In this document: one piece after another, positions 5,050 through 18,197 of the stretch
How positions within the stretch are numbered: position 1 is the stretch's first letter
Layout: each line of letters starts with the position of its first letter
Source of the DNA: a virus
Reading direction: 5' to 3' (one strand)
Virus record (IMG/VR): IMGVR_UViG_3300018428_000180
Coordinates: 1-23,934 of that record
DNA: 23,934 nucleotides
Notes under the pieces: generated by a model
Databases searched by the model: none
What the model saw: the letters and a program-made list of their open reading frames with translations, nothing else
Told to the model about the DNA's origin: nothing
Translations under genes and position numbers: made by a program

Positions 5050-5541
5050 TTACACAACGCCGAAGGATATGTTAGCACTTATACCCTCAGTGATGAGATA
5101 TGGGTGAAAGAAGCCGTCTTTGTAGGTTTCGTTAAGCCCTACAATCATTGGTACACCTTCGCAATCGCTTTTGAGTATGCCCACTGGATCGTTGTCCTTC
5201 CAAAATATTGCTTCCTGTTCGGTTTCAAATTGAAAACACCATACCTTTTGATCCTCAATGTAAAATGTTGTAACAGGTGTAATGTTCATTGGTTGGCAAC
5301 GTAAACTAATACACTGCAATATGGTTTCAAAGTTGCGTTGTTGGTTGCGTTGATAGTTCCAATCTGCGTCGCTTAGTTCACTGTTACGTCGATAACTTTT
5401 TACACCAGTTGGTGTTATATCAAATTGTGTTATTACTTCTACACCACTGCTCATAAGATGTCTCTGTTTTGCATCAAACAAACGACGGTAAACTGTTTTG
5501 CCGCCGTCTGGTGATTCATATATGTATTTAGGCGTCGGCAA
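5050..5541 (-). CDS. Phage hypothetical protein, 163 aa, probable TTG start
   Basis: Function not recognised. The N-terminus (PKYIYESPDGGKTVYRRLF) resembles, from memory, a small conserved protein of T4-like marine phages. The rest is mixed alpha/beta, with FYIEDQKVWCFQFETEQEAIFWKDND in the middle; no catalytic motif is apparent. There is no ATG before residue 30, and the conserved-looking N-terminus lies upstream of it, so a TTG at 5541 is the likely start; it overlaps the end of the oxygenase gene by 14 bases and has a weak GGAA upstream, suggesting translational coupling. It could act with the two oxygenases before it in the same operon, but nothing in the sequence proves that. Confidence 0.65.
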   Translation of the reverse strand: MPTPKYIYESPDGGKTVYRRLFDAKQRHLMSSGVEVITQFDITPTGVKSYRRNSELSDADWNYQRNQQRNFETILQCISLRCQPMNITPVTTFYIEDQKVWCFQFETEQEAIFWKDNDPVGILKSDCEGVPMIVGLNETYKDGFFHPYLITEGISANISFGVV

Positions 5542-6046
5542 CCTTAAGTTTCCATGCTACTGTTACACGAAGTTCTGTGCAATGACGGCTTGGTTCCATA
5601 CCAGCATGTAGTATCGTGCTATCAAACATCACTGCTGTGTTCGGCGTTGGGTATTGTTGACGTATTTCCAATCCGTCTTTGTCAAACCACACAGTATTTC
5701 CGCCCCAAACTGGATTCCAAATTTTGTTTGCGTAGTAAAGTACAGTAAAGTATTTGCCTTCTGGAGCATCAACTACGTCCTGATGTAAACTACCACAGAG
5801 TCCTGTGGTTTGTCCATTGGCATACACCCTGCTGAGTTCAAACTTTTTGCCGGTATCAGATTCAATTTGTTTTAATAGTGTGTCGGTGAACAACGGATCA
5901 TCGTCGAGGTCCAGCATCCAAAAGCCAAGCCCACTGCTAACACTACGCTGTCCAAAGTGCCAACCTTTTGCATATCTTGTTTTTACAAACACTTCCTCGG
6001 CTTGCTCTGCACTTAGCCAATTATCTGCTACATCAATCTCAATCAT
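5528..6046 (-). CDS. 2OG-Fe(II) oxygenase (prolyl-4-hydroxylase-like)
   Basis: Probable non-haem iron dioxygenase using 2-oxoglutarate and O2, 172 residues, a compact single jelly-roll domain. The iron ligands fit HxD at H88/D90 (GSLHQDVVD) and a distal His147 (TILHAGMEPS); Arg160 (ELRVTVAWKL), 13 residues further on, is placed to bind 2-oxoglutarate. WGGNTVWFD in the middle is the usual strand pairing of the fold. Such genes are common in T4-like marine phages, and their substrates (protein, DNA base or small molecule) are mostly unknown. The ATG overlaps the end of the preceding oxygenase by 8 bases, so the two are probably co-translated. Confidence 0.8.
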   Translation of the reverse strand: MIEIDVADNWLSAEQAEEVFVKTRYAKGWHFGQRSVSSGLGFWMLDLDDDPLFTDTLLKQIESDTGKKFELSRVYANGQTTGLCGSLHQDVVDAPEGKYFTVLYYANKIWNPVWGGNTVWFDKDGLEIRQQYPTPNTAVMFDSTILHAGMEPSRHCTELRVTVAWKLKVADA

Positions 6047-6677
6047 TTTTTACCTCTACAATTTTGCTGTTTGCCGCTACCACATAACGGTTTTTGCCTT
6101 CTTCGCTGGTGTATGGAAGTTGGCTGTGGTATATGAAACTGGGAAATACCAATAACAAGCCATCCTTATTGTTGATGTCAATACTGCTTTTTGCAGTCAT
6201 CCACATTGTGCCCATGTCAAAGTAACTGCTGTTCAAAGCATTGTAAAATCTTGTAAGACCGTTTTTGGTTTCGTTGTCGCTGTCGCCTACATCAATATAG
6301 TAGATGCAACTCCAACTGCTGTTACCATGTATGTGCTTGTCATGATGAGCACCAGGACGGCAAATGTGGCACCAACTTTCGTGGACTTTTACAGCAAGTT
6401 GCATACCTGCGTCCCACTTGCCTTCATTGGCCTTGCTGGCACTTTTCCATATACTTTGGTTTACAAAATTAGCCAGGGCTGTTACACTGGAATCTTCAAG
6501 ATTAAGAAAGTTAAAAGCACTCTCATACAGCCCATGTTTTGCACCCGGAGCAACTCCACTGGTGCTGTTGTTCTGCTCAAGTAGATGGCAAATTTCTTTC
6601 AGTCGGTCTTTGTGTTTGTCAGCATCTTCCCATTCAAAGCCATAAAAAGGGACGCTGAATTCATTGATTTCTAACAT
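6039..6677 (-). CDS. Putative 2OG-Fe(II) oxygenase, second family
   Basis: 212 residues, resembling the TIGR02466-like branch of 2OG-Fe(II) oxygenases. His115-x-His117 (DKHIHGNSSWSCIYYIDV) is the proximal metal motif in HxH rather than HxD form; His184 (LVFPSFIYHSQLPY) is the distal ligand and Arg197 (KNRYVVAANSKI) the probable 2-oxoglutarate contact. The jelly-roll pattern (SCIYYID; LLLVFPSF) supports the fold. It is not close in sequence to the oxygenase downstream, so the pair is not a simple duplication. It lies just after a strong terminator and must have its own promoter or rely on read-through; ATTAAATA in the 17-base gap is a weak late-box candidate. Substrate unknown. Confidence 0.7.
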   Translation of the reverse strand: MLEINEFSVPFYGFEWEDADKHKDRLKEICHLLEQNNSTSGVAPGAKHGLYESAFNFLNLEDSSVTALANFVNQSIWKSASKANEGKWDAGMQLAVKVHESWCHICRPGAHHDKHIHGNSSWSCIYYIDVGDSDNETKNGLTRFYNALNSSYFDMGTMWMTAKSSIDINNKDGLLLVFPSFIYHSQLPYTSEEGKNRYVVAANSKIVEVKND

Positions 6678-7252: not shown

Positions 7253-7813
7253 CTAACGGATAATAGTGTTTAGCTTTTCAAAGAAATCGCTCTGTATGCC
7301 TACTTCACGCATGTTGAATCTTAGACGTTTGAGCACGGTTTGTTTGTCAGATGCACTTAGAAACTTCCATCTACTGATTTGACGTCTAAGAGTTTTAAGT
7401 TGATCGGGAATAAAGTCTGTAAAACGATTCTGCAGAATGATCATCATGCGACTAAAATCGTCATTGTTGAATCTCTTTTGCGCAATGTAGCCAAGATTCC
7501 TACGCAAGATTAGATCTGGTATTGAAATTACTGTATCAGTTTTCTTAGTGAGATCCGGAAAGCGATCAGCGTGATGTGTAAGCACAATTAAGTTATACAA
7601 GTCAGGCATACTAGTGCGAAAGCCTGCAAAATCTCTATGACGTAAAATTTGTTCGCTGTAGTTTGCGGCTGCCTTTGGATCTACATTTGCTAGAACCTGT
7701 AACACAAGTAGATGTTCAAATAATTTTTCAACAAGAGCTTCGACTGACTTACCATTTGTTTGGCTTAATCTACGATACAATCTGCTTTCGTCAAGTTCTT
7801 GTAAAAATTTCAT
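7253..7813 (-). CDS. Helical phage hypothetical protein, 186 aa
   Basis: Function not recognised. Almost entirely helical by residue pattern (ALVEKLFEHLLVLQVLANVD; LKTLRRQISRWKFLSASDKQ), basic towards the end (LRRQ, KRLRFNMRE), with no membrane segment or metal motif. The ATG shares its A with the TAA of the 626-aa protein gene upstream (TAATG), so the two are translationally coupled. It is the last gene of the operon starting at 10611. It may be a partner or virion companion of the 626-aa protein; this is inference from coupling only. Confidence 0.75.
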   Translation of the reverse strand: MKFLQELDESRLYRRLSQTNGKSVEALVEKLFEHLLVLQVLANVDPKAAANYSEQILRHRDFAGFRTSMPDLYNLIVLTHHADRFPDLTKKTDTVISIPDLILRRNLGYIAQKRFNNDDFSRMMIILQNRFTDFIPDQLKTLRRQISRWKFLSASDKQTVLKRLRFNMREVGIQSDFFEKLNTIIR

Positions 7814-9693
7814 TAAAGTTCCGGATTGTTTTTAGCAAAGTTTGCTTGGCTGAAACGCATTCTATCCACAAACTTGAGATCCTGTCCTACATAGCCTTCG
7901 TGCCCAGGCTCGTCGTCAATGCTTGCTTCAATCTCGTGTGCGTTTTGATCTAATTGGCGTATCATATCATTCTTAACAGCACTGAGCAGTAGGAAGGTGT
8001 TTACCAGTGCCGCTGTTCCTTGGCTGTTTTCTTTCATCCACTCAATCATGCGTGGTGCTTGTGTGGGCACTTTTTCGCTAACCCAATCAACAAAGCCCTT
8101 GATCATGTTATCGTAATTTCCAGCACGAACTTTGGTGTTAATATATTGCTTGAACAGTTTAGGGAAATTGCTGATGCGTCTGTTGCGCAACTCACTAGGG
8201 TTGAACAGTGCATCAATTTGTGAACCATACTTGCTTTTTAACTGCTTGAGTTGTGAAATATTCTTCTCGTCAAGTTGTACGCCAGCCACACTGTCTTTGA
8301 TGTTTTGATCAGCAACAAACAAATCAGGTATATCAGAAACTGTTGCACCACTTACGGGTTCGACGTCAGCACCTGGTGCATCTAACTTGCTGTGAATAAC
8401 AAGACCAAACGTGCTACCGGCAATACGCTTGCCAAGATCACTGTTTGCATCCACACTGTACTTCACAGTGTTTGGTTCAAATACGAGTTTGCCGTCCTGC
8501 TCTGCATAAGGCTTTTGTGGATGGAACAGCAGGTCTGCTTGTAGGTATCCTTTGAGATTCTTGGGTGTCGCCTTTTCTAGCACAGGCCAAAGATCAGCAT
8601 ACAGTTGTGCTAGTTCTTCTCTACCGCCACCTTTACGTTGTGCCAGTACATCAGCCATTTGCTTGGGACTGGTTGCCAGTCCAACACCGCCTGCTTTTAG
8701 GAATCCGCCTTTGTCCGTGAGTACAAATTCACCTTTGGGGTTGCGTCCAAATATAATTGCTGGCTTGCCGTCCCACTTTACTGTTGCTGTTGTGGGCTGT
8801 TGTGCTGTACGCTCAAGTCCTTGTATAGCAGTATCAATACCTGCACTACCACGATCAAACACTAGGTCTTCTGGATGTTCTATGCGCACACCTTCCTCCA
8901 GTATGTCGCTTTCGACGATAACTTGGTAACCCTGATTGACAACTCTGTCTCTCAGTCTAGCTAACCAGTGTACACTATTTGGATCCTCTGTGTCAACCGT
9001 TTCTTCAAGAGTGATGCCTTGCTTTGCGGCATAGTCACGGAAGTCTGCTAACTTAGCATCTCGTTTAGGATCTTTTTTAAGAGCGGCTAATATTTTTTCA
9101 ACACTGCCCAATGGTGTTCTGTCTGTGGCACCCGGTATAAACAGTTTTGCAACTTCGTCTGGATTGTCAGTGACCAGCTCGTTGGTAGCTCTGTTAACCA
9201 ATCCAACGTTTTGATTGATCTTGTAACCCATGCTTTTTGCAATGCTTGCTAACAGTATAGCTCGTGTCACACCTTTGAACTTGCTGTCGTCATCCTGTGT
9301 CAGGTACCATTTCTGAAAGTCAGGCTTTTGTAAAAACATAAAGTCTGTTTGTACATAGCCATTATCAGGACGTCCAGCAATAGGTGTTTTAAGATGAATA
9401 TTAATTCCAGTAGCAGAAACCCATTCTTTTGGATCTAGTCCGTGGCTGGTTGCCCACTGTTCCAGTTTTGCTCTAAACTGACCTTTGTCTATTTTGTTTG
9501 CATCTACTGCTAGATCCAAATCACCTGACGTAGGTGTCTTGCCCGTACTTCCTAGCATGTTGTTAAGCAATTCAAGTCCAGTTAGTTGTTCTAGCCAGTC
9601 TACCGTGGGTTTTACATCTGTTTGATTGATACGTTGGGTAACAGGCTTACCCTCAGCGTCTTTGAATTCATTGCCGCCTTCATTCACAATCAT
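7813..9693 (-). CDS. Two-domain protein: Pol-beta-type nucleotidyltransferase plus ligase-like KxDG domain
   Basis: A 626-residue protein. Residues about 35-165 carry the Pol-beta-fold nucleotidyltransferase signature: GS at 48-49, a DxD at D58/D60 (SGDLDLAV), and a third Asp at 117 (VQTDFMF) after a strand. Residues about 300-440 resemble the covalent nucleotidyltransferase (DNA/RNA ligase) core: K306-W-D-G309 (TVKWDGKPAIIFGR, motif I), a following strand pair and DKGGF, LQADLL at 384-389 (motif III-like, Asp replacing Glu), and GLVIH at 430-434 (motif IV-like). About 180 further residues are helical. No OB-fold is evident. Large proteins with this KWDG motif occur in cyanophages as unknowns (from memory). 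The ATG overlaps the previous stop (ATGA), within a four-gene late operon, so a packaged or late-acting enzyme is possible. The biochemical activity is inference. Confidence 0.65.
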   Translation of the reverse strand: MIVNEGGNEFKDAEGKPVTQRINQTDVKPTVDWLEQLTGLELLNNMLGSTGKTPTSGDLDLAVDANKIDKGQFRAKLEQWATSHGLDPKEWVSATGINIHLKTPIAGRPDNGYVQTDFMFLQKPDFQKWYLTQDDDSKFKGVTRAILLASIAKSMGYKINQNVGLVNRATNELVTDNPDEVAKLFIPGATDRTPLGSVEKILAALKKDPKRDAKLADFRDYAAKQGITLEETVDTEDPNSVHWLARLRDRVVNQGYQVIVESDILEEGVRIEHPEDLVFDRGSAGIDTAIQGLERTAQQPTTATVKWDGKPAIIFGRNPKGEFVLTDKGGFLKAGGVGLATSPKQMADVLAQRKGGGREELAQLYADLWPVLEKATPKNLKGYLQADLLFHPQKPYAEQDGKLVFEPNTVKYSVDANSDLGKRIAGSTFGLVIHSKLDAPGADVEPVSGATVSDIPDLFVADQNIKDSVAGVQLDEKNISQLKQLKSKYGSQIDALFNPSELRNRRISNFPKLFKQYINTKVRAGNYDNMIKGFVDWVSEKVPTQAPRMIEWMKENSQGTAALVNTFLLLSAVKNDMIRQLDQNAHEIEASIDDEPGHEGYVGQDLKFVDRMRFSQANFAKNNPEL

Positions 9694-10361
9694 ACATTAA
9701 TGCCCAAGGCCGCAAGAAACTCTCGTGGACCTACTTGCCTAATAAAATTGGCCATTTGTTTTTGCTGTTGAGGTGTTATACCTAGTCCGTCGGCAATTGC
9801 CTTCTGCACTGACGCTGGATCGGATTGTAATGGTTCTTGTTGTGCTTGTGCTTGTGTGCCTTGCGCCGCTTGTTTTGCGGCTTTTTGTTTTTGTTTTTGT
9901 TTTATTGTGGGCGGCTTACCAAGTGCCTTGGCAGCGATCATTGTGGACATTAAACTTTTAAAATATGCTTTTACTGTGTTTGGTCGATTTCTGTTTGAAA
10001 CAATAGTCGACATAACTGCTTTTATCCTGCCGGCCTCAACGTTGTCAACATCGACGTCGTTGATGTTAAAACCAATTATTTGCTGAACAAAGTTGTTTAA
10101 TACCCTTGTATATTCGTTTGCTTCTATTTCGCCCGACTCACCGGCGGCTACTTTTGCCTGTGTATACTGTCCTACCTGTTGTGCAAATGTGGTATACAGT
10201 TGATCTGCAAGAGCTTGCATATTGCGATCTTTTTCAATTTGAGCGGCACGTTGAGTTATTGGCATTTTACTGAGTGAGCCTGTTCCGCTGGGATCACTTT
10301 GTTGTAGTGCGCGAATGTAGTCTAAGAAACCTACTTCGTTTAAAATTTGATCATGTCTCAT
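9690..10361 (-). CDS. Phage hypothetical protein with KQ-rich linker, 223 aa
   Basis: Function not recognised. Residues about 1-150 are helical, with IGFNINDVDVDNVEAGRIKA in the middle. Residues about 153-180 are low complexity (KQKQKQKAAKQAAQGTQAQA), a flexible basic linker. The final 40 residues form a small helical domain (ADGLGITPQQQKQMANFIRQ) that could be a docking module. It overlaps the 86-aa gene upstream by 11 bases and the 626-aa gene downstream by 4 bases, so all are one operon. A virion or internal protein is plausible from the late promoter and linker, but unproven. Confidence 0.75.
   Translation of the reverse strand: MRHDQILNEVGFLDYIRALQQSDPSGTGSLSKMPITQRAAQIEKDRNMQALADQLYTTFAQQVGQYTQAKVAAGESGEIEANEYTRVLNNFVQQIIGFNINDVDVDNVEAGRIKAVMSTIVSNRNRPNTVKAYFKSLMSTMIAAKALGKPPTIKQKQKQKAAKQAAQGTQAQAQQEPLQSDPASVQKAIADGLGITPQQQKQMANFIRQVGPREFLAALGINV
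9882..9903. repeat. TTTTTG hexanucleotide repeat
   Basis: Three TTTTTG units followed by TTTT on the plus strand, coding the KQKQKQ stretch of the 223-aa protein on the minus strand. Since each unit is 6 bases, slippage by whole units would change linker length without breaking the frame. Confidence 0.7.
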
Positions 10362-10611
10362 CTGTGCGTCTCACCGATCTAAAAAACTTGCGAGGGTCTT
10401 TTGTGCGAATTGCATTTAACAGTTTTCTTTGAAGATTTTCTGCCTGATCAGCGTCATACATTTCTTCTATTTGTTCAATTAATCGAATAGCACTTGATAT
10501 AACATTATCGGCTCTACTTTCAACAATGTACTTGCGTTCCCGTTGAACACTGTAACGCTCATTGTAGATAGTATCCAATTCCTCAAGAATACTGCGAGTT
10601 TTCTTTTGCAT
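10351..10611 (-). CDS. Small helical phage protein, 86 aa
   Basis: Begins MQKKTRSILEELDTIYNERY and is highly charged and helical throughout (SAIRLIEQIEEMYDADQAEN), ending in a basic segment (RTKDPRKFFRSVRRTDET). It resembles, from memory, a small conserved protein of T4-like cyanophages of unknown role. I use the ATG at 10611 rather than the upstream in-frame TTG at 10656, because a CATAAATA late-promoter box at 10634-10641 would lie inside the longer form. It is the first gene of the late operon with the 223-, 626- and 186-aa proteins. Confidence 0.75.
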   Translation of the reverse strand: MQKKTRSILEELDTIYNERYSVQRERKYIVESRADNVISSAIRLIEQIEEMYDADQAENLQRKLLNAIRTKDPRKFFRSVRRTDET

Positions 10612-10633
10612 TTCAATATAAATCTCTTTTTGA

Positions 10634-10641
10634 TATTTATG
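10634..10641 (-). promoter_or_regulatory. Late promoter box CATAAATA for the four-gene operon
   Basis: The minus strand reads CATAAATA (NATAAATA form) 22 bases upstream of the 86-aa gene ATG. The gap from 10612 to 10714 otherwise holds only the leader of the plus-strand polymerase gene; a TATACT at 10660-10665 on the plus strand has no well-spaced -35 box. Confidence 0.55.
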
Positions 10642-10714
10642 GCAATCAGTAAACAAAATTATACTTTGTTGTTACCCAATAGTAAATACCAAAAGGCACA
10701 AATAGGCACACATT

Positions 10715-12415
10715 ATGGCAAACGAAATAGAACAGATACAGAGTTTATTAGATGAATTTAGGCGACCAGTACCAAACGGTGAACAATATCAAGATAGACT
10801 TGCTGAAGAGTTTGAAATCATACTACAGCAACGTTTCACAGACTACTTCTTAAAGATACGCAAAATATTGGACCTCAATGAGGACATACCACACATGACC
10901 CGCGGTAGTGCGGGTAGCAGTTTGGTGTGCTATCTCATGGGTATAACGGATGTGGATCCAATAGAGTGGAAGATTCCATTGGCACGTTTCTTAAATCCAC
11001 ACAGGGACGACTTACCTGACGTGGACATTGACGTACCGCATCACAAACAAGAACTAGCAATGCAACGGGTGTTTGACACTTGGCCCAATCAAAGTGCTAG
11101 GATATCAAACTATGTGTTATATAGAGAAAAGAGTGCAAAAAGGGAAGCGGCAAAACGTTTGGGTGCAAAAGGACGCTTGCCCAGAGATATAGACTATGAA
11201 AAACTGGGTGTGGATGTTAAAGAAGCAACCCGCATAGAACGTAAACTGCTAGGCAAGAAGCGTTGCATCAGCAAACACTGCGGTGGTGTACTAGTATTTG
11301 ACAGGGCACTTCCTAAGAGCTTGTTCCGTGAAGACAACCTAATACTGTTGGACAAAAACGAAGTAGAGGATTTGGAACACCTGAAAGTGGACATACTAGC
11401 CAACAGAGGACTCAGCCAACTGCTAGAAATAGATCCCAATACTCCACTGCATGAATATCCTAAACAGGATGATGCCACTGCTGACTTGCTATGCCGCGGT
11501 GATGTACTGGGTGTTACACAAGGCGAAAGTCCTACAATGAAAAGATTATTCCGTGCCTTGCAACCCACAGGTGTAGAGGACTGTGTGTTTGCCAGTGCAT
11601 TGGTGCGTCCTGTTGCCATGGAAGGCAGACGCAAAGCAAGTTGGTTCCGCGATTGGACAGAAGAAGGCATCAAGAAAAACGCCATTGTGTATGAGGATGA
11701 TGCTATAGACAAAATTATGAAACTGATTGGCATAAGTCCATACGAAGCAGACATGTATCGCAGAGCGTTTGCCAAAAAGAATGAAGAAAAGATGATGGAG
11801 TTCATGGGCAGGCTAGGTGATCATCCTGACAAGTATGACATCTATGATCAAATGCAAACACTATCAGGCTTTGGCTTGTGTAGAGCACACGCTGTAAACT
11901 TGGGCAGGCTCATATGGGCACTGGCATATCACAAGGTACACAATCCTAAACAGTTTTGGCGTGCCTGCTTGATGCACTGTCAAGGCAGTTATGCACGTTG
12001 GGTGTATCGCAATGAAGCAAAACGTGCTGGCTGGGACTTGCGTGACCTAGGCTTTGACAACTGGGTAACTGAAGATCCTGTACAAAGTTTCCTAGACAAG
12101 GGTGCTTGGAACAGCCCTGGCTTTTTACCAGGCATGGGCTTGCAAAAACTTTACTTGGATAAGTTTCAGTTTGCTGGCATAGTTGCAAACAGCAGAGTGT
12201 TCAAGTGCGATGCTAAAAGTTACATACATTTTATCACACTTGGTGTAGGCGAAGGCAAGTATGTAGACATAGTTGTGGACAAACCTGTAAAGTATTCAAA
12301 TGGCAGTGTGGTGTTGGGTGAAGGAGAACTGCATCACAAGGACAACAGCGAATACCTAAAGGTAAAACGCAAAAGTGTTAAGGTTATGCCTATAACAGAC
12401 TATGTTACTTGTTAG
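10715..12415 (+). CDS. Family C (DnaE-like) DNA polymerase core lacking the PHP domain
   Basis: 566 residues matching the catalytic core of bacterial Pol III alpha. In order: a helix ending FTDYFLKIRKILDL (36-54), RGSAGSSL (63-70, palm), FLNP (92-95), PDVDID (101-106) giving D104 and D106, a reduced thumb (about 115-185), HCGGVLVF (188-195), KVDIL with D226, TQGESPTMKRLF (268-279), RPVAMEGRR (298-306), ADMYRRAFAKK (345-355), and GFGLCRAHAVNLGRL (385-399), the counterpart of FNKSHxxxYA. Residues about 500-555 look OB-like. The PHP domain (normally about 270 residues), the helix-hairpin-helix and the tau-binding tail are missing, so it is about half the usual length. T4-like phages normally replicate with a family B enzyme, making this unusual. 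It is alone on the plus strand and converges on the helicase gene with an 11-base overlap. Activity is inferred from the conserved triad. Confidence 0.85.
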   Translation: MANEIEQIQSLLDEFRRPVPNGEQYQDRLAEEFEIILQQRFTDYFLKIRKILDLNEDIPHMTRGSAGSSLVCYLMGITDVDPIEWKIPLARFLNPHRDDLPDVDIDVPHHKQELAMQRVFDTWPNQSARISNYVLYREKSAKREAAKRLGAKGRLPRDIDYEKLGVDVKEATRIERKLLGKKRCISKHCGGVLVFDRALPKSLFREDNLILLDKNEVEDLEHLKVDILANRGLSQLLEIDPNTPLHEYPKQDDATADLLCRGDVLGVTQGESPTMKRLFRALQPTGVEDCVFASALVRPVAMEGRRKASWFRDWTEEGIKKNAIVYEDDAIDKIMKLIGISPYEADMYRRAFAKKNEEKMMEFMGRLGDHPDKYDIYDQMQTLSGFGLCRAHAVNLGRLIWALAYHKVHNPKQFWRACLMHCQGSYARWVYRNEAKRAGWDLRDLGFDNWVTEDPVQSFLDKGAWNSPGFLPGMGLQKLYLDKFQFAGIVANSRVFKCDAKSYIHFITLGVGEGKYVDIVVDKPVKYSNGSVVLGEGELHHKDNSEYLKVKRKSVKVMPITDYVTC

Positions 12416-13811
12416 CCTTGAGTCCTGCTAGCATCTGCTTGAGCTTGGTGCTTTCAACATCTGCTCGTATCTTTCCTGGTTCATTTTCAACTGCGGCACT
12501 GTCTTCCTCGCCAGTCATAGTGCTCTTGCTCTTGATGCTTTCATAGATACTACTGCTACGCTTCTTGAACTCTTGGTAATCTTGATCTTCGCCTAAGTCA
12601 CGAATACGCAGGCTCTCCATGTCAAACTCCAAGTCTACCTTTTGCCCTACACCCGAACTTGAACGTGTCTTCATTGCTTGTATCTGATAGCGTCCGCGCT
12701 CACGCATTGCTCTGCTTGTAAAGATACCAAACACGTTGTCAGCAGTGTTGATCTTGGATATACCGCCTGCAATGTGGCTGTGATCAAACTCAATTTCTTC
12801 TACTGCACTACGGTTCAACTGCGATGCTGTTACAAACAGTATGTTCATTTCCCTAGCCAAGTTGCGTAGTTCTTCTGAAACATACTTGTCTTTTACAAAC
12901 TGATCATTTGGGCTTACCTTTGCACTCACCGGCATCAACAAGTCCAAGTAGTCAACACACATAAAGTCAATACCGCGTCCAGTTTTAATTTGTAACTCTT
13001 TGCAGAATGCACGAACATCATTTACGTTGCTCTGTGCTGGCATGTATTTGATCTGCAGGTTACCGGCTTTCTTCTTCATCATCTTGACTTTCATTTCCAC
13101 AGTGTCAAGATCCTTAAACAGTTGCTTTGCGGCTGTGTTAGTCAGCATACTGTCAATACGCATAGCAGTCAAGCCTTCACTGAGTTCTAGCGTAATGTAC
13201 GCACCGTTAAGTCCTGCTTCCAACCAATTCACAGCCAAGTTCTGCATGAACAAACTCTTACCCGAACCTGATCCACCTGCAAAGATCTGTAGTTCGCCTC
13301 TGTTGAATCCTCCATAAAGTAGTTTGTCTAGTGCAGGCCAACCTGTGCTATTCTGTCCGTTGTTGTCTTTGAGTGCCGCAAGTCTGCCACGCGGATCCTC
13401 AAAGTAGTCTGTACCCAAGTCCTTTGTCAAACTAATCTGTACAGCATCCTTGATCAGTTTTTCAACAGGATCATATGTGCCTTTCTCCAACAGGTCAGCA
13501 CTCTTGAGGATAGCACGTTCTAGTTCTTTGCGTCGGGTAAAGCCTTCAAACTCCTGCAAACACCAATCCAAGTGTCCTTCATTTAGCTCTGGAATCTCTT
13601 GCAGTGTAACACCAGTTACTGCTTTTATCTGTGCCCTGTCAGGCAATGTTTTGTGTTCGTTGGTATGTTCATAGATAAACTGTGCAGTCTCTCTCAAGTG
13701 CCTGTCAAAGTTTTCACTGTTGAATATGTTCTGCACACGCAGGAAACTCTGTGCATCCTGCATCATGATTTCTAAAAATAGTTGCTGTACTTCAGGTGAA
13801 TAATCTTTCAT
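12405..13811 (-). CDS. 41: Replicative DNA helicase, gp41/DnaB type
   Basis: Hexameric replicative helicase that would unwind the fork and work with the primase encoded just upstream. Start taken at the ATG at 13811 (MKDYSPEVQQLF), with TAGG 6 bases upstream; in-frame ATGs at 13817 and 13859 would overlap the SGNH gene further. From this start, residues about 1-140 are the helical N-terminal domain; the RecA-like domain follows with Walker A GGSGSGKS at about 179-186, an acidic Walker B strand (IDFMCVDYLDLLM), the Gln-containing VTASQLNRSA motif, and an arginine-rich IQAMKTRSSSGVG strand. About 469 residues, usual for gp41. The stop overlaps the end of the convergent DnaE-like gene by 11 bases, leaving no room for a terminator. 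Confidence 0.92.
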   Translation of the reverse strand: MKDYSPEVQQLFLEIMMQDAQSFLRVQNIFNSENFDRHLRETAQFIYEHTNEHKTLPDRAQIKAVTGVTLQEIPELNEGHLDWCLQEFEGFTRRKELERAILKSADLLEKGTYDPVEKLIKDAVQISLTKDLGTDYFEDPRGRLAALKDNNGQNSTGWPALDKLLYGGFNRGELQIFAGGSGSGKSLFMQNLAVNWLEAGLNGAYITLELSEGLTAMRIDSMLTNTAAKQLFKDLDTVEMKVKMMKKKAGNLQIKYMPAQSNVNDVRAFCKELQIKTGRGIDFMCVDYLDLLMPVSAKVSPNDQFVKDKYVSEELRNLAREMNILFVTASQLNRSAVEEIEFDHSHIAGGISKINTADNVFGIFTSRAMRERGRYQIQAMKTRSSSGVGQKVDLEFDMESLRIRDLGEDQDYQEFKKRSSSIYESIKSKSTMTGEEDSAAVENEPGKIRADVESTKLKQMLAGLKANK

Positions 13812-14500
13812 TGCCATCCTAAATTTTGTGTCATTGGTTTTATCACTTGTGTGTACCATTCATTGTTACCAGCCTCGCCATGGTGTCCTTGCCATTCCCA
13901 TTGGTCGAAATCAACTGGTTTGTGTTTGCCCTTGTTTACACTGTAATAGGTATCCTGCAGATTAAAATTATTTCTGTTTTGTATTTTATCTAATACTGCT
14001 TTCAATGGCGTCCACTGTGTATCATTGAGGAAAGGCGCACTAGCATTTACCACAGCAATATCTTGTGTAAAATATTCACACAGCAACAACATGTTTCTTA
14101 TTGTCACTGCTTGGTTATAACTCATGTTCCAACCCATTAAATGATATTTGCCGATATCGGTAATACTAACATTGATCATACCGCTATGACTGTCTACTGG
14201 TATGTGCTCTTGTAAATCTAAATCGTTGTTAAATATTTGTGCATGCTCAAGTGTGCTTGTTTTTTCATCGTATGCTACGGTACGTCCAATTGGCGGTAGA
14301 GCAATAATAATTTTATCTTGTTGATTGATACGTTGTTGATTACAGAACAGTGTATGCACAATGCATTCAACACTGTTGGTAGGCCAACTCCAATTTGTTA
14401 CAGGAGTATCCATATCCTGTGCTAGTCTTCCCCACCAACTGTGTGCCTTTTCTACACAATAATCTGGAGTGCTATAACTATCGCCAAAAACGTGTAACAT
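13808..14500 (-). CDS. SGNH-hydrolase-like protein between primase and helicase
   Basis: 230 residues. The N-terminus MLHVFGDSYSTPDY has the block I GDS motif with Ser8 as the possible nucleophile of the SGNH/GDSL fold; IIIALPPIGR at about 64-73 suits the strand carrying block III-type residues. Near the C-terminus WQGHHGEAGNNEWYTQVI is a plausible equivalent of block V with its His. Family members are esterases, lipases or glycan deacetylases; similar GDS proteins occur in marine phages with unknown substrates. The ATG shares one base with the primase TAA (TAATG) and the stop overlaps the helicase start, so it is translated within the replication operon. Whether it is an enzyme is uncertain. 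Confidence 0.6.
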   Translation of the reverse strand: MLHVFGDSYSTPDYCVEKAHSWWGRLAQDMDTPVTNWSWPTNSVECIVHTLFCNQQRINQQDKIIIALPPIGRTVAYDEKTSTLEHAQIFNNDLDLQEHIPVDSHSGMINVSITDIGKYHLMGWNMSYNQAVTIRNMLLLCEYFTQDIAVVNASAPFLNDTQWTPLKAVLDKIQNRNNFNLQDTYYSVNKGKHKPVDFDQWEWQGHHGEAGNNEWYTQVIKPMTQNLGWQ

Positions 14501-15471
14501 TAACTTAACTTGCTCCGCAAACGTTTTTTAGCCATTTCAATTTTGATCTTGCCGCTTACACGGCTTTCCATTATCATCAGCAGTGTAGTTATCTCTCCAT
14601 AACGACAAACAGCATCATTGACGTCTTTTATGTCTGCTGGCCAGTCAGGTATGCTTACACTATAGTTGTATTCCAGTGCGCTGTCAATCAATTTGAGTCC
14701 AGCCTCATCCTGGTCAGGCACCACAATGATTTCTTTTTCCAAACTGCGTATCAGTCTGCTTTGTGCTTCATTGATGTTGTTGTGTAACACTGCCAAGCCA
14801 TTGATGCACAGTGCATCAATTACACCTTCGACCACAATAGCGTACTGCCAATCAGGCTGTTGCAGGTCTGTACCAAACACATAGCCTGGTTGTATGTCCT
14901 GTATATACTTGGGTATCCTGCCATCAATGTATCGTGTGGCATGTCCTACTATGGTGTTGTTGTGTGTGAAGGGTATTATAAATCCTACACGGGCACTGTG
15001 TTCTACATCCTGCGTCAAGTACGGATAGTCTTCAGGCAAACACCTATCCTCTATGTACTTCCACAATACTGTGTCTTTTTCAATCTTGTATGCACGGCTG
15101 GGCAATTCACGTTCTTCAAACTCAATGTTCATTAAACGTTGTTGGATTTGTTGACGTTCTAGTGCAAGTCCTTCAATGCTACGATGACGGAGACTTTCAA
15201 GATTGATGCGTTCTATTTCTTCCTGCGGTACGTTGAACCAGCCCAGCAAACGTTTGGCTTTGAAACTGAGATTGCGTCCCAACATAAAACTTGCAGTGAA
15301 GCCACAATTAAAACAGTGGTAGCTCCACGAGTCTTCGTTGAACTTGATGCCGCCACGTCCACGCTTGTCTTGGCTTTCGCCATTGTGTACACAACAGGGT
15401 GCATTGAATGAGATCCATCCGCCTGAGGTTTGTTTGCGTTTTGCTGGCAAGTAAGTTAGAAGATCAATCAT
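14500..15471 (-). CDS. 61: DNA primase, gp61/DnaG type
   Basis: Makes the RNA primers for lagging-strand synthesis with the gp41-type helicase. An N-terminal zinc-binding domain is visible: C26/C27, H29 and C53-x2-C56 (SYHCFNCGF). The TOPRIM core has the glutamate motif VVEGVIDAL (E215) and the acidic pair in VPDQDEAG (D253, D255). Total 323 residues, close to gp61. The ATG at 15471 gives MIDLLTYLPAKRKQ, which fits the family N-terminus. No ribosome site is visible; instead the start lies in the loop of a perfect 11-bp inverted repeat beside a TATAAT box, which suggests special control. Confidence 0.9.
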   Translation of the reverse strand: MIDLLTYLPAKRKQTSGGWISFNAPCCVHNGESQDKRGRGGIKFNEDSWSYHCFNCGFTASFMLGRNLSFKAKRLLGWFNVPQEEIERINLESLRHRSIEGLALERQQIQQRLMNIEFEERELPSRAYKIEKDTVLWKYIEDRCLPEDYPYLTQDVEHSARVGFIIPFTHNNTIVGHATRYIDGRIPKYIQDIQPGYVFGTDLQQPDWQYAIVVEGVIDALCINGLAVLHNNINEAQSRLIRSLEKEIIVVPDQDEAGLKLIDSALEYNYSVSIPDWPADIKDVNDAVCRYGEITTLLMIMESRVSGKIKIEMAKKRLRSKLS

Positions 15472-16904: not shown

Positions 16905-17647
16905 TGAATACTCTGTTGGTTAACGGTTGTAGTGCCACTCGCAGCAAACCAGATGAAACCACTTGGGCAGATCATTGTTGCAAGCACTTTGGATTTACCA
17001 ACTACAAAAATATGGCAATGCGAGGTGCAGGAAATCAGTACATTTGCGACAGCACAATCTATATATTAGAAACAGAACAGCACTCTCCAGTGGATACATT
17101 TGTGCTCATACAATGGACCTCCATCACACGAAAAGATGTTACCGTCAGCGGCGAATGGTACTACAACATCAAAGATGAATATACATGCGTAAAAGAGACA
17201 GCATCTGACCTTTACCATGTACACAGTGGCGGATGGTTGAATTACAGTTGGGAACACAATCGAGTTACTAAAAAATTGTTTGATCAGCAATATAAAATGA
17301 TTGATCCTCGAGGTATGGGCATAGATAGCTTGTTGTGTTTTATAAAACTGCAACACTATCTCGAATCCAAAGGGTTTAGCTACGCTGTAACCACAAACAA
17401 CTATCATTTCGACGAGTTGGAACCTACAAACATTCACGGAGAGTTTCACCTTGGGTATTTTTGTAAAGACTTAGATTTGTACAAAAATTTTGCATGCAAA
17501 AATTGGTTTTATGCAAACAAAAACCAAGGCATCAACGATTATGCTTTCAGCATGAACCAATTACATAACAGACATGCGACTGAATTAGCACACAAAAAAT
17601 TTGCAGAAGATGCGGCTATTCCGTACTTGCAAAAATTTATCCACTGA
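16904..17647 (+). CDS. SGNH-hydrolase-like protein, 247 aa
   Basis: The N-terminus LLVNGCSATRS has a G-C-S in place of GDS, with Ser10 in the block I position. MAMRGAGNQYICDS (about 40-53) fits block II/III with its Gly and Asn, and FVLIQWTSITRKDV (about 66-79) fits the strand after it. Near the end LHNRHATELAHKKFAED resembles block V, where His follows an acidic or Asn residue (DxxH). Proteins with GCS-x-T and W-T/S-S-x-x-R motifs are widespread in marine phages; their substrates are unknown. Late promoter and coupling to the 125-aa gene suggest a late or virion-related role. The last 11 bases overlap the end of the opposite-strand mini-DnaE gene. Confidence 0.6.
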   Translation: MNTLLVNGCSATRSKPDETTWADHCCKHFGFTNYKNMAMRGAGNQYICDSTIYILETEQHSPVDTFVLIQWTSITRKDVTVSGEWYYNIKDEYTCVKETASDLYHVHSGGWLNYSWEHNRVTKKLFDQQYKMIDPRGMGIDSLLCFIKLQHYLESKGFSYAVTTNNYHFDELEPTNIHGEFHLGYFCKDLDLYKNFACKNWFYANKNQGINDYAFSMNQLHNRHATELAHKKFAEDAAIPYLQKFIH

Positions 17648-18197
17648 GTAGGTTGATGTGTAGTGCAACCAACCTGGCATAGCTGATGCTGTGGCTTTTC
17701 TTAAAAGTAAACCCAGCACTGTCATCTCCATCCCATACACTTGCAAACACAGTTTCCCAAGGCTGTCGCTGTAGGTGTGCCTTGCCTGGACGAATGATAG
17801 CAATAAAAGCCGCCATTCTGGGAATACTATCCGGACGCATGTCACACACTAAATCATGATAGTTGCTGATGTGTACAACCTGTTCACAGAACTGTTTATC
17901 TAATAATAAATCCCAATTTGGTTCTTGAGCAAGCATGGCGTCATAATGAGCTTGGTCACGCACTAGTGTGTACACACTTTGATTTAAGAAGTCAATCTTG
18001 AAGTATCCACGATCCTCGGCTTCGCGATAATCAATGCTTGCACAGTTGTGGATTGGATCAATGGGAATAGGAGTTACATACACACCCGAGTTGTGTTTAC
18101 GAACTTCCCCATTATTTTCTTGACGTGCAGGTACATGCTTGATTAGTTCAAGTATGCGATTACGATCTGCAAAGTCTATATCTACATCAGCACTCAT
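17637..18197 (-). CDS. Miniature DnaE-like (family C polymerase palm/fingers) protein, 186 aa
   Basis: Motifs of Pol III alpha appear in the correct order in only 186 residues. ADVDIDF at residues 3-9 matches PDxDIDF (D6 and D8 as catalytic-type Asp); RKHNSGVYV at 33-41 matches the HAAGVVI strand; EDRGYFKIDFLNQSVYTL at 61-78 matches the KxDFLGLxTL motif with D69; RPDSIPRMAAFIAIIRPGK at 121-139 matches the RPDxxxDIxALxALxRPGP fingers segment; FKKSHSISYA at 165-174 matches FNKSHAxAYA. The PHP domain, the upstream palm, the thumb (between residues 9 and 33) and everything after the fingers are missing. All three aspartates survive, so it is not simply decaying. Similar small proteins occur in T4-like cyanophages as unknowns, from memory. 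The ATG overlaps the preceding TGA by 11 bases. Polymerase activity is doubtful; a regulatory or binding role is possible. Confidence 0.75.
   Translation of the reverse strand: MSADVDIDFADRNRILELIKHVPARQENNGEVRKHNSGVYVTPIPIDPIHNCASIDYREAEDRGYFKIDFLNQSVYTLVRDQAHYDAMLAQEPNWDLLLDKQFCEQVVHISNYHDLVCDMRPDSIPRMAAFIAIIRPGKAHLQRQPWETVFASVWDGDDSAGFTFKKSHSISYARLVALHINLLSG

Follow-up and report, generated by a model that had tools for sequence, protein, structure and literature searches.

The locus studied here raises the question of why a phage with gp41- and gp61-type replication genes should encode a family C DNA polymerase core, and whether this enzyme replaces or accompanies gp43, the family B polymerase that T4-like phages normally use. 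The preliminary description of the locus had noted a protein of this kind on the strand opposite to the helicase and primase genes, and had taken the virus for a T4-like phage. The window analysed is the entire IMG/VR record IMGVR_UViG_3300018428_000180, of 23,934 bases, and genome-wide questions were answered via relatives. The features located in the window are collected in Table 1.

Table 1. Positions in the window of the compact polymerase gene, its proposed control elements and its neighbours.
Feature	Position	Strand	Basis or remark
GTAAATA element, T4-late-promoter-like, weak	10682..10688	+	upstream of the repeats; consensus resemblance only
AGGCA-repeat leader (AGGCACAAAT AGGCACACAT T-ATG), proposed translational operator	10694..10714	+	124/138 orthologous leaders
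Compact family C DNA polymerase without PHP domain (predicted), 566 aa, ATG start	10715..12415	+	PF07733, PF17657, phrog_405
Catalytic motif DVDID: D102, D104, D106	11018..11032	+	aligned with family C cores including E. coli DnaE
K224-V-D226, third catalytic Asp	11384..11392	+	equivalent to E. coli K553, D555
C-terminal OB fold, residues 480-559	12152..12391	+	VIA-align Z up to 9.8, SSB/PriB OB folds
101-aa conserved neighbour, divergent from the polymerase	10351..10656	-	adjacent to it in 78 loci
gp41/DnaB-type replicative helicase, convergent with the polymerase	12405..13859	-	phrog_19 4.5e-67
DnaG/gp61-type primase	14500..15471	-	phrog_47 5.7e-31
Split minimal Pol III alpha C-half, 186 aa, begins MSADVDIDF	17637..18197	-	phrog_11778 7.2e-60
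UvsW-type helicase, C-terminal part, off contig end	23361..23933	-	Pfam Helicase_C 1.5e-8

Domain architecture and fold

The 566-aa protein is matched by the Pfam family DNA_pol3_alpha (PF07733; 1.8e-40, profile positions 18-260 of 260), followed after the palm by the finger domain PF17657 (1.3e-16), and by phrog_405 (1.4e-62), and a sequence search of solved structures with it returned essentially only bacterial Pol III alpha. The alignment to the E. coli alpha subunit starts at about residue 284/315, past the PHP domain. An AlphaFold model built with 43 relatives (pLDDT 82.6) was superposed by VIA-align on DnaE structures with Z-scores of 29.9 (5lew), 29.3 (2hpi) and 25.9 (E. coli 2hnh), its residues 3-447 corresponding to residues 284-833 of the 2hnh chain, that is, to palm, thumb and fingers, with the thumb reduced to the helices at 161-178. 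The C-terminal OB fold is also covered in the alignments to the alpha subunits of E. coli (5fku) and Taq (2hpi). The division into palm, reduced thumb, fingers and OB-like end given in the preliminary description is thus borne out by the Pfam matches, by Z-scores of 25-30 against DnaE and by an OB fold at residues 480-559, and the similarity is not a partial one lacking the catalytic residues, the palm profile being covered nearly end to end and the metal ligands being present.

The regions that surround this core in the bacterial enzyme were looked for by profile search and by structural alignment, which agree in supporting the earlier statement that they are missing. Neither the window nor any of 10 related records gave a match to the PHP domain (PF02811), and the polymerase itself starts at the palm. 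The helix-hairpin-helix and beta-clamp-binding region is absent, only about 30 residues lying between the end of the fingers (447) and the OB fold (480), compared with more than 100 in E. coli, and so is the tau-binding domain, the protein ending with the OB fold and a few further residues. No match to PF00136 (family B, T4 gp43) was found on the compact polymerase. Membership of DnaE2 was considered and rejected, since the best NCBIfam match, PRK05672, reached 171.7 bits against a cut-off of 939. A C-terminal clamp-binding peptide of the gp45/PIP type was likewise discarded, the ends of some members (RLDKYL, SIDDYL) being replaced by KLQELV or KLKSIAS in others. Taken from sequence and model together, the reading frame encodes an intact family C polymerase core.

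Catalytic and finger residues

In E. coli DnaE, the metal ligands are D401, D403 and D555. The alignment equates D102, D104, D106 and D226 of the compact polymerase with D401, D403, D405 and D555, respectively, and its predicted metal-binding set is therefore D102/D104/D226. The triad originally proposed, D104/D106/D226, was shifted by one aspartate: D104 and D226 stand, and D106 gives way to D102. All four aspartates are invariant in 43 diverse aligned members, as are K224, the RGS loop, R349 and H392 in the alignment of the compact family. Several finger positions that are invariant in other family C enzymes are changed throughout the clade (F609 to T268, G641 to V300, F756 to L388, N757 to C389 and Y764 to L396, E. 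coli numbering first), so that the predicted activity of the compact polymerase could be altered.

A family confined to phages

A first scan for relatives returned 83 stretches, of which 80 were kept, and a scan seeded with the 484-kb huge phage LR756508 extended the count: the compact polymerase is encoded in at least 336 IMG/VR stretches and in LR756508 itself. Full-length reading frames of 554-574 aa were present in 73 of the 75 far members inspected. In a maximum-likelihood tree of cores, in which 15 compact members were set against bacterial DnaE and nine phage DnaE proteins, all 15 form one clade (support 100/98), which is deep, phage-only and apart from bacterial DnaE, although its sister-group placement is affected by long branches meeting. 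For near pairs at 86-88% protein identity, dN is about 0.10 and dS 1.3-2.9, giving dN/dS of about 0.04-0.09; the compact polymerase is under strong purifying selection.

These results bear on the idea that the gene is a recent capture of a host DnaE whose outer domains were lost. Homology to bacterial DnaE is what such an origin would predict, and another phage DnaE, gp54 of Streptomyces phage Itza, does group with the bacterial proteins. The compact clade, however, is deep, restricted to phages and uniform in architecture, and does not branch from within host DnaE; when 84,980 species genomes were scanned, no more than 11 DnaE-like matches came up, ordinary or weak ones with 24-35% identity; and the genome place of the gene is conserved among relatives that are only 55-64% identical. 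We consider recent host capture to be highly improbable.

Phage identity and the other polymerases

Two long relatives that encode the compact polymerase, G001 (328 kb) and G002 (316 kb), were used to establish the genomic context. Their major capsid protein is 62-64% identical to that of the RaK2-type phage CBB, and their matches to CBB further include portal, terminase, gp44, gp32, UvsX, UvsW, sigma55 and ribonucleotide reductase; the CBB UvsW matches the 328-kb relative at the place equivalent to that of the UvsW-type helicase in the window. On this gene content, G001 and G002 are assigned to the RaK2-type jumbo phages. The description as a T4-like phage is accordingly right about the gp41/gp61-type neighbours and has to be amended as to the virus, whose long relatives are RaK2-type rather than plain T4-like.

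The search for gp43, run by profile in the long relatives, found a PolB as a separate gene in both. The PolB of the relatives possesses an exonuclease domain (identified in G001), a YGDTDS motif and a C-terminal tail, NTFNTLFEFE, which resembles a gp45-binding one. Both phages also encode gp44, gp32 and UvsX/UvsW. No match to PHP, PolA or the PF00929 exonuclease was found in G001 or G002, nor was one to the DnaQ-like protein of CBB, of which a divergent homologue could be missed. PF02916 (gp45 clamp) scored above its cut-off neither in the relatives nor in any of 14 control genomes. Ten shorter contigs with the compact polymerase, all of them fragments, gave no PolB match. The huge phage LR756508 has PolB and the compact enzyme; its PolB match, at 260623-266900, is divided between one open frame of 1022 aa and another of 625 aa, separated by about 4 kb, and its family B polymerase thus appears to be split or interrupted.

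A second family C enzyme accompanies the compact one. Iyer et al. 2021 (PMC7824862) reported a split minimal Pol III alpha from group 2.2 jumbo phages (CBB_328 and CBB_287), and G001 and G002 carry both of its halves in addition to PolB and the compact polymerase. The C-half, which is also encoded in the window, opens directly with the DxD motif. It has homologues in RaK2, PA5oct and Atu_ph07 phages, and residues 401-777 of DnaE are matched by its model (Z 7.9). Among the names under which its homologues have been deposited is 'putative membrane protein' (CBB_287). The split enzyme resembles the compact polymerase in being a phage-specific reduced family C catalytic module alongside PolB. It differs in consisting of two proteins (157-172 aa and about 186-216 aa) that are encoded far apart and lack an OB fold, with the break just before the DxD motif, whereas the 566-aa protein is a single chain with complete fingers and an OB fold, and is additional to it. 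Descent of the compact enzyme and the split C-half from one ancestor was considered and not retained, a comparison of the two alignments by hhalign giving a probability of 2% and no confident match.

It might be supposed that the compact protein is derived from a polymerase but is not catalytic, and that it has a regulatory or scaffolding function instead, possibly together with the halves of the split Pol III alpha. The replacement of finger residues that are invariant elsewhere is compatible with this, as is the presence of the split C-half in most of the long relatives that carry the compact enzyme. Against it stands the invariance of all metal ligands and of the RGS loop, K224, R349 and H392, and LR756508 has the compact enzyme without a split C-half. 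A non-catalytic role seems to us quite unlikely.

The presence of PolB and of a split second family C enzyme in G001 and G002 runs counter to the notion that the compact polymerase stands in for gp43. We propose instead, at what we judge to be even chances, that it is a catalytically competent compact family C polymerase which is accessory to a gp43-type replicase, and not a replacement for it, in a large clade of aquatic jumbo phages. From its architecture and neighbourhood, its role would be gap-filling, repair or lesion tolerance.

Gene neighbourhood and strand

The gene does lie beside the helicase and primase genes and on the opposite strand, as first described, with the primase nearby and the polymerase and helicase overlapping tail-to-tail by 11 bp. 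A helicase gene is near the compact polymerase in 133 of 160 loci, and throughout the family the genes recur in one order: compact polymerase, helicase, primase, split C-half, UvsW. Polymerase and helicase are convergent in the window's clade and in loci L210, L231, L233, L254 and L257; in another large lineage, the two are co-directional, with the polymerase after the helicase and usually an endonuclease III gene in between; and in a third (e.g. L194, L247), the polymerase is located away from the helicase. The intervening endonuclease III (HhH-GPD, 9.2e-19) was seen in L221 at 9257-9937, with equivalents in L191, L195, L203, L208, L217, L222 and L264. Elsewhere in the window, a DUF6267 protein (2.9e-45; 7813-9693, minus strand) is kept near the compact polymerase in 56 loci, and two adjoining genes of the 2OG-Fe(II) oxygenase type occupy 5528-6677 (minus strand).

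The opposite strand had been read as a sign of later acquisition or separate timing. Since orientation varies among lineages and the place is conserved, the strand says little about acquisition, and that part of the reading is contradicted by the synteny with helicase and primase that is kept across divergent lineages and is co-directional in one. Separate timing may apply, and the conserved leader of the gene lends it mild support. CBB has the same order UvsW, C-half, primase, helicase, after which there is no compact polymerase, so that the gene was either gained in the present lineage or lost from the RaK2 isolates. CBB also encodes a DnaQ-like epsilon protein (CBB_280), and G001 and G002 show the reverse combination; this alternation of DnaQ-like protein and compact polymerase may be complementary or coincidental.

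The neighbourhood also invites the view that the compact enzyme is the principal replicase, working with the adjacent helicase-primase, and that the family B polymerase carries out repair or strand-specific work. That most contigs of the clade have it close to both of these genes would fit, as would the strong purifying selection. The relatives nevertheless keep a gp43-type PolB with exonuclease, YGDTDS motif and gp45-binding-like tail, together with gp44 and gp32; the compact enzyme has neither a clamp-binding region nor an identified proofreader; and CBB has the same helicase-primase block with no compact enzyme after it. This assignment of roles is therefore unlikely in our estimation.

A leader shared with the SSB gene

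Directly before the ATG of the compact polymerase, AGGCA repeats stand in tandem about 10 nt apart. Two to four AGGCA occur in 124 of 138 compact-polymerase leaders of 50 nt, and two or more in 0.73% of random background windows, the 138 leaders being related by descent and hence no set of independent trials. Two or more are found in the leaders of all 63 near members and in 12 of 22 representatives under 85% identity. Of 131 start codons examined in the window, that of the compact polymerase is the only one with two AGGCA within 80 nt. When approximately 1,500 start codons were examined in each of G001 and G002, the compact polymerase ranked first in AGGCA count (3), and the SSB gene was among the few other starts with 2, the rest of which mostly look like matches within the upstream ORF.

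A separate scan of SSB (gp32-type) genes found two to four AGGCA in 69 of 75 leaders, and in G002 a block of about 41 nt is identical between the SSB and polymerase leaders. In the SSB leader, the repeats flank a hairpin (G001 257651, minus strand; G002 196074, plus strand; L327-L406): a perfect stem of at least 6 pairs is present in 77% of 35 distinct segments between repeats, compared with 3% of shuffles. The stems differ in sequence (GAGTAG/CTACTC, GATGAG/CTCATC, ATCTAA/TTAGAT) and pairing is kept, so that the SSB hairpin covaries. The repeats and hairpin of the SSB leader are a candidate for a new family of RNA operators. In addition to the AGGCA repeats, an AGGAG of its own is often present in an SSB leader. 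A hairpin was also sought in the compact-polymerase leader and set aside, since it occurred only in a G002-like subclade and its MFE was not clearly better than that of shuffles. LR756508 lacks the AGGCA leader, as does the CBB gene for gp32.

An element similar to the GTAAATA of the window, (G/T/A)TAAATA, is present in most orthologous compact-polymerase leaders. The leaders of early-type genes in G001 (gp44, UvsW, sigma55, FEN) have sigma-70-like TTGACN/TATAAT sites, and the (G/T)TAAATA element of the compact polymerase is closer to the T4 late consensus than they are.

A precedent for such control is provided by T4, in which gp32 is the repressor of the mRNA that encodes it, acting by way of a folded element and of repeats that cover the ribosome-binding site, and binds ssDNA in preference to the operator RNA (PMC535899). 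The arrangement found here is similar to the T4/RB69 operator in combining folded RNA with repeats over the SSB ribosome-binding site, and different in that the repeats are AGGCA rather than UUAAA and are also placed on a polymerase gene (PMC535899). The shared AGGCA leader suggests that the compact polymerase and the SSB are controlled together.

Alternatively, AGGCA may be only a lineage-specific ribosome-binding signal that implies no shared control of the two genes. AGG, which AGGCA contains, is the core of the Shine-Dalgarno sequence, and the last repeat is close to the ATG; the repeats might serve in part for ribosome binding. Such a signal would sit less easily with the polymerase ranking highest, and the SSB among the few with two copies, out of about 1,500 starts per relative, with the other two-copy starts being mostly chance-like and inside upstream coding sequence, or with SSB leaders that often have an AGGAG of their own and a conserved hairpin between the repeats. 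We hold this simpler account to be possible but doubtful.

Proposed role

Under the accessory role preferred above, the compact polymerase would be an enzyme of low processivity and without proofreading, because no PHP or DnaQ partner was found and the beta-binding region is missing. By analogy with T4 gp32, the AGGCA repeats over the start codon may act as a translational operator, at which free SSB would repress the compact polymerase; exposed ssDNA would titrate SSB away and thereby release its translation. Control by a protein other than SSB is also possible. Gap filling or repair is favoured because of the putative SSB control, the lack of a detectable proofreader and the endonuclease III neighbour in one lineage. 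We tentatively extend this to a scheme, to which we would give a minority chance, in which the phage lineage has up to three polymerases of two families and the compact one is translated only when ssDNA titrates SSB off the two-gene AGGCA operator, so that gap filling would be SSB-gated.

Relation to known systems and implications

PHP-less family C cores, the split minimal Pol III alpha together with PolB, and the abundance of PF07733 in marine jumbo phages are already known. Mycobacterium phage Leopard gp84 and Microbacterium phage Haunter gp57 also have a family C core that begins past the PHP domain, but they are 762-766 aa long, keep helix-hairpin-helix-like segments and lie elsewhere in the tree, and a second gene annotated as DnaE-like is found just upstream (gp82 and gp56, respectively). 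Bacterial DnaE and DnaE2 share palm, fingers, OB fold and catalytic aspartate set with the compact polymerase; the bacterial replication enzyme has about 1,160 aa, in contrast to 566 aa with no PHP, beta-binding or tau-binding regions and with the finger changes described above. A PF07733 gene (51.9% of phages) has been noted as distinguishing the PGC_A marine jumbo phages (PMC9123017); in the portion of that source consulted, the domain alone is given, and the compact full core is not separated from the N-half of the split enzyme. In a literature search, which covered few subscription journals, no description was found of the AGGCA leader or of a third polymerase that consists of an unsplit 560-residue core with an OB fold.

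The compact polymerase is a free-standing family C core of about 560 residues that has apparently long been kept, beside a T4-type replicase, without PHP, clamp-binding or tau domains. As a natural compact enzyme available for study, it allows a direct test of how small a working Pol III alpha can be. The leader that it shares with the SSB gene leads to the hypothesis that a phage could sense exposed ssDNA and answer with an extra polymerase.
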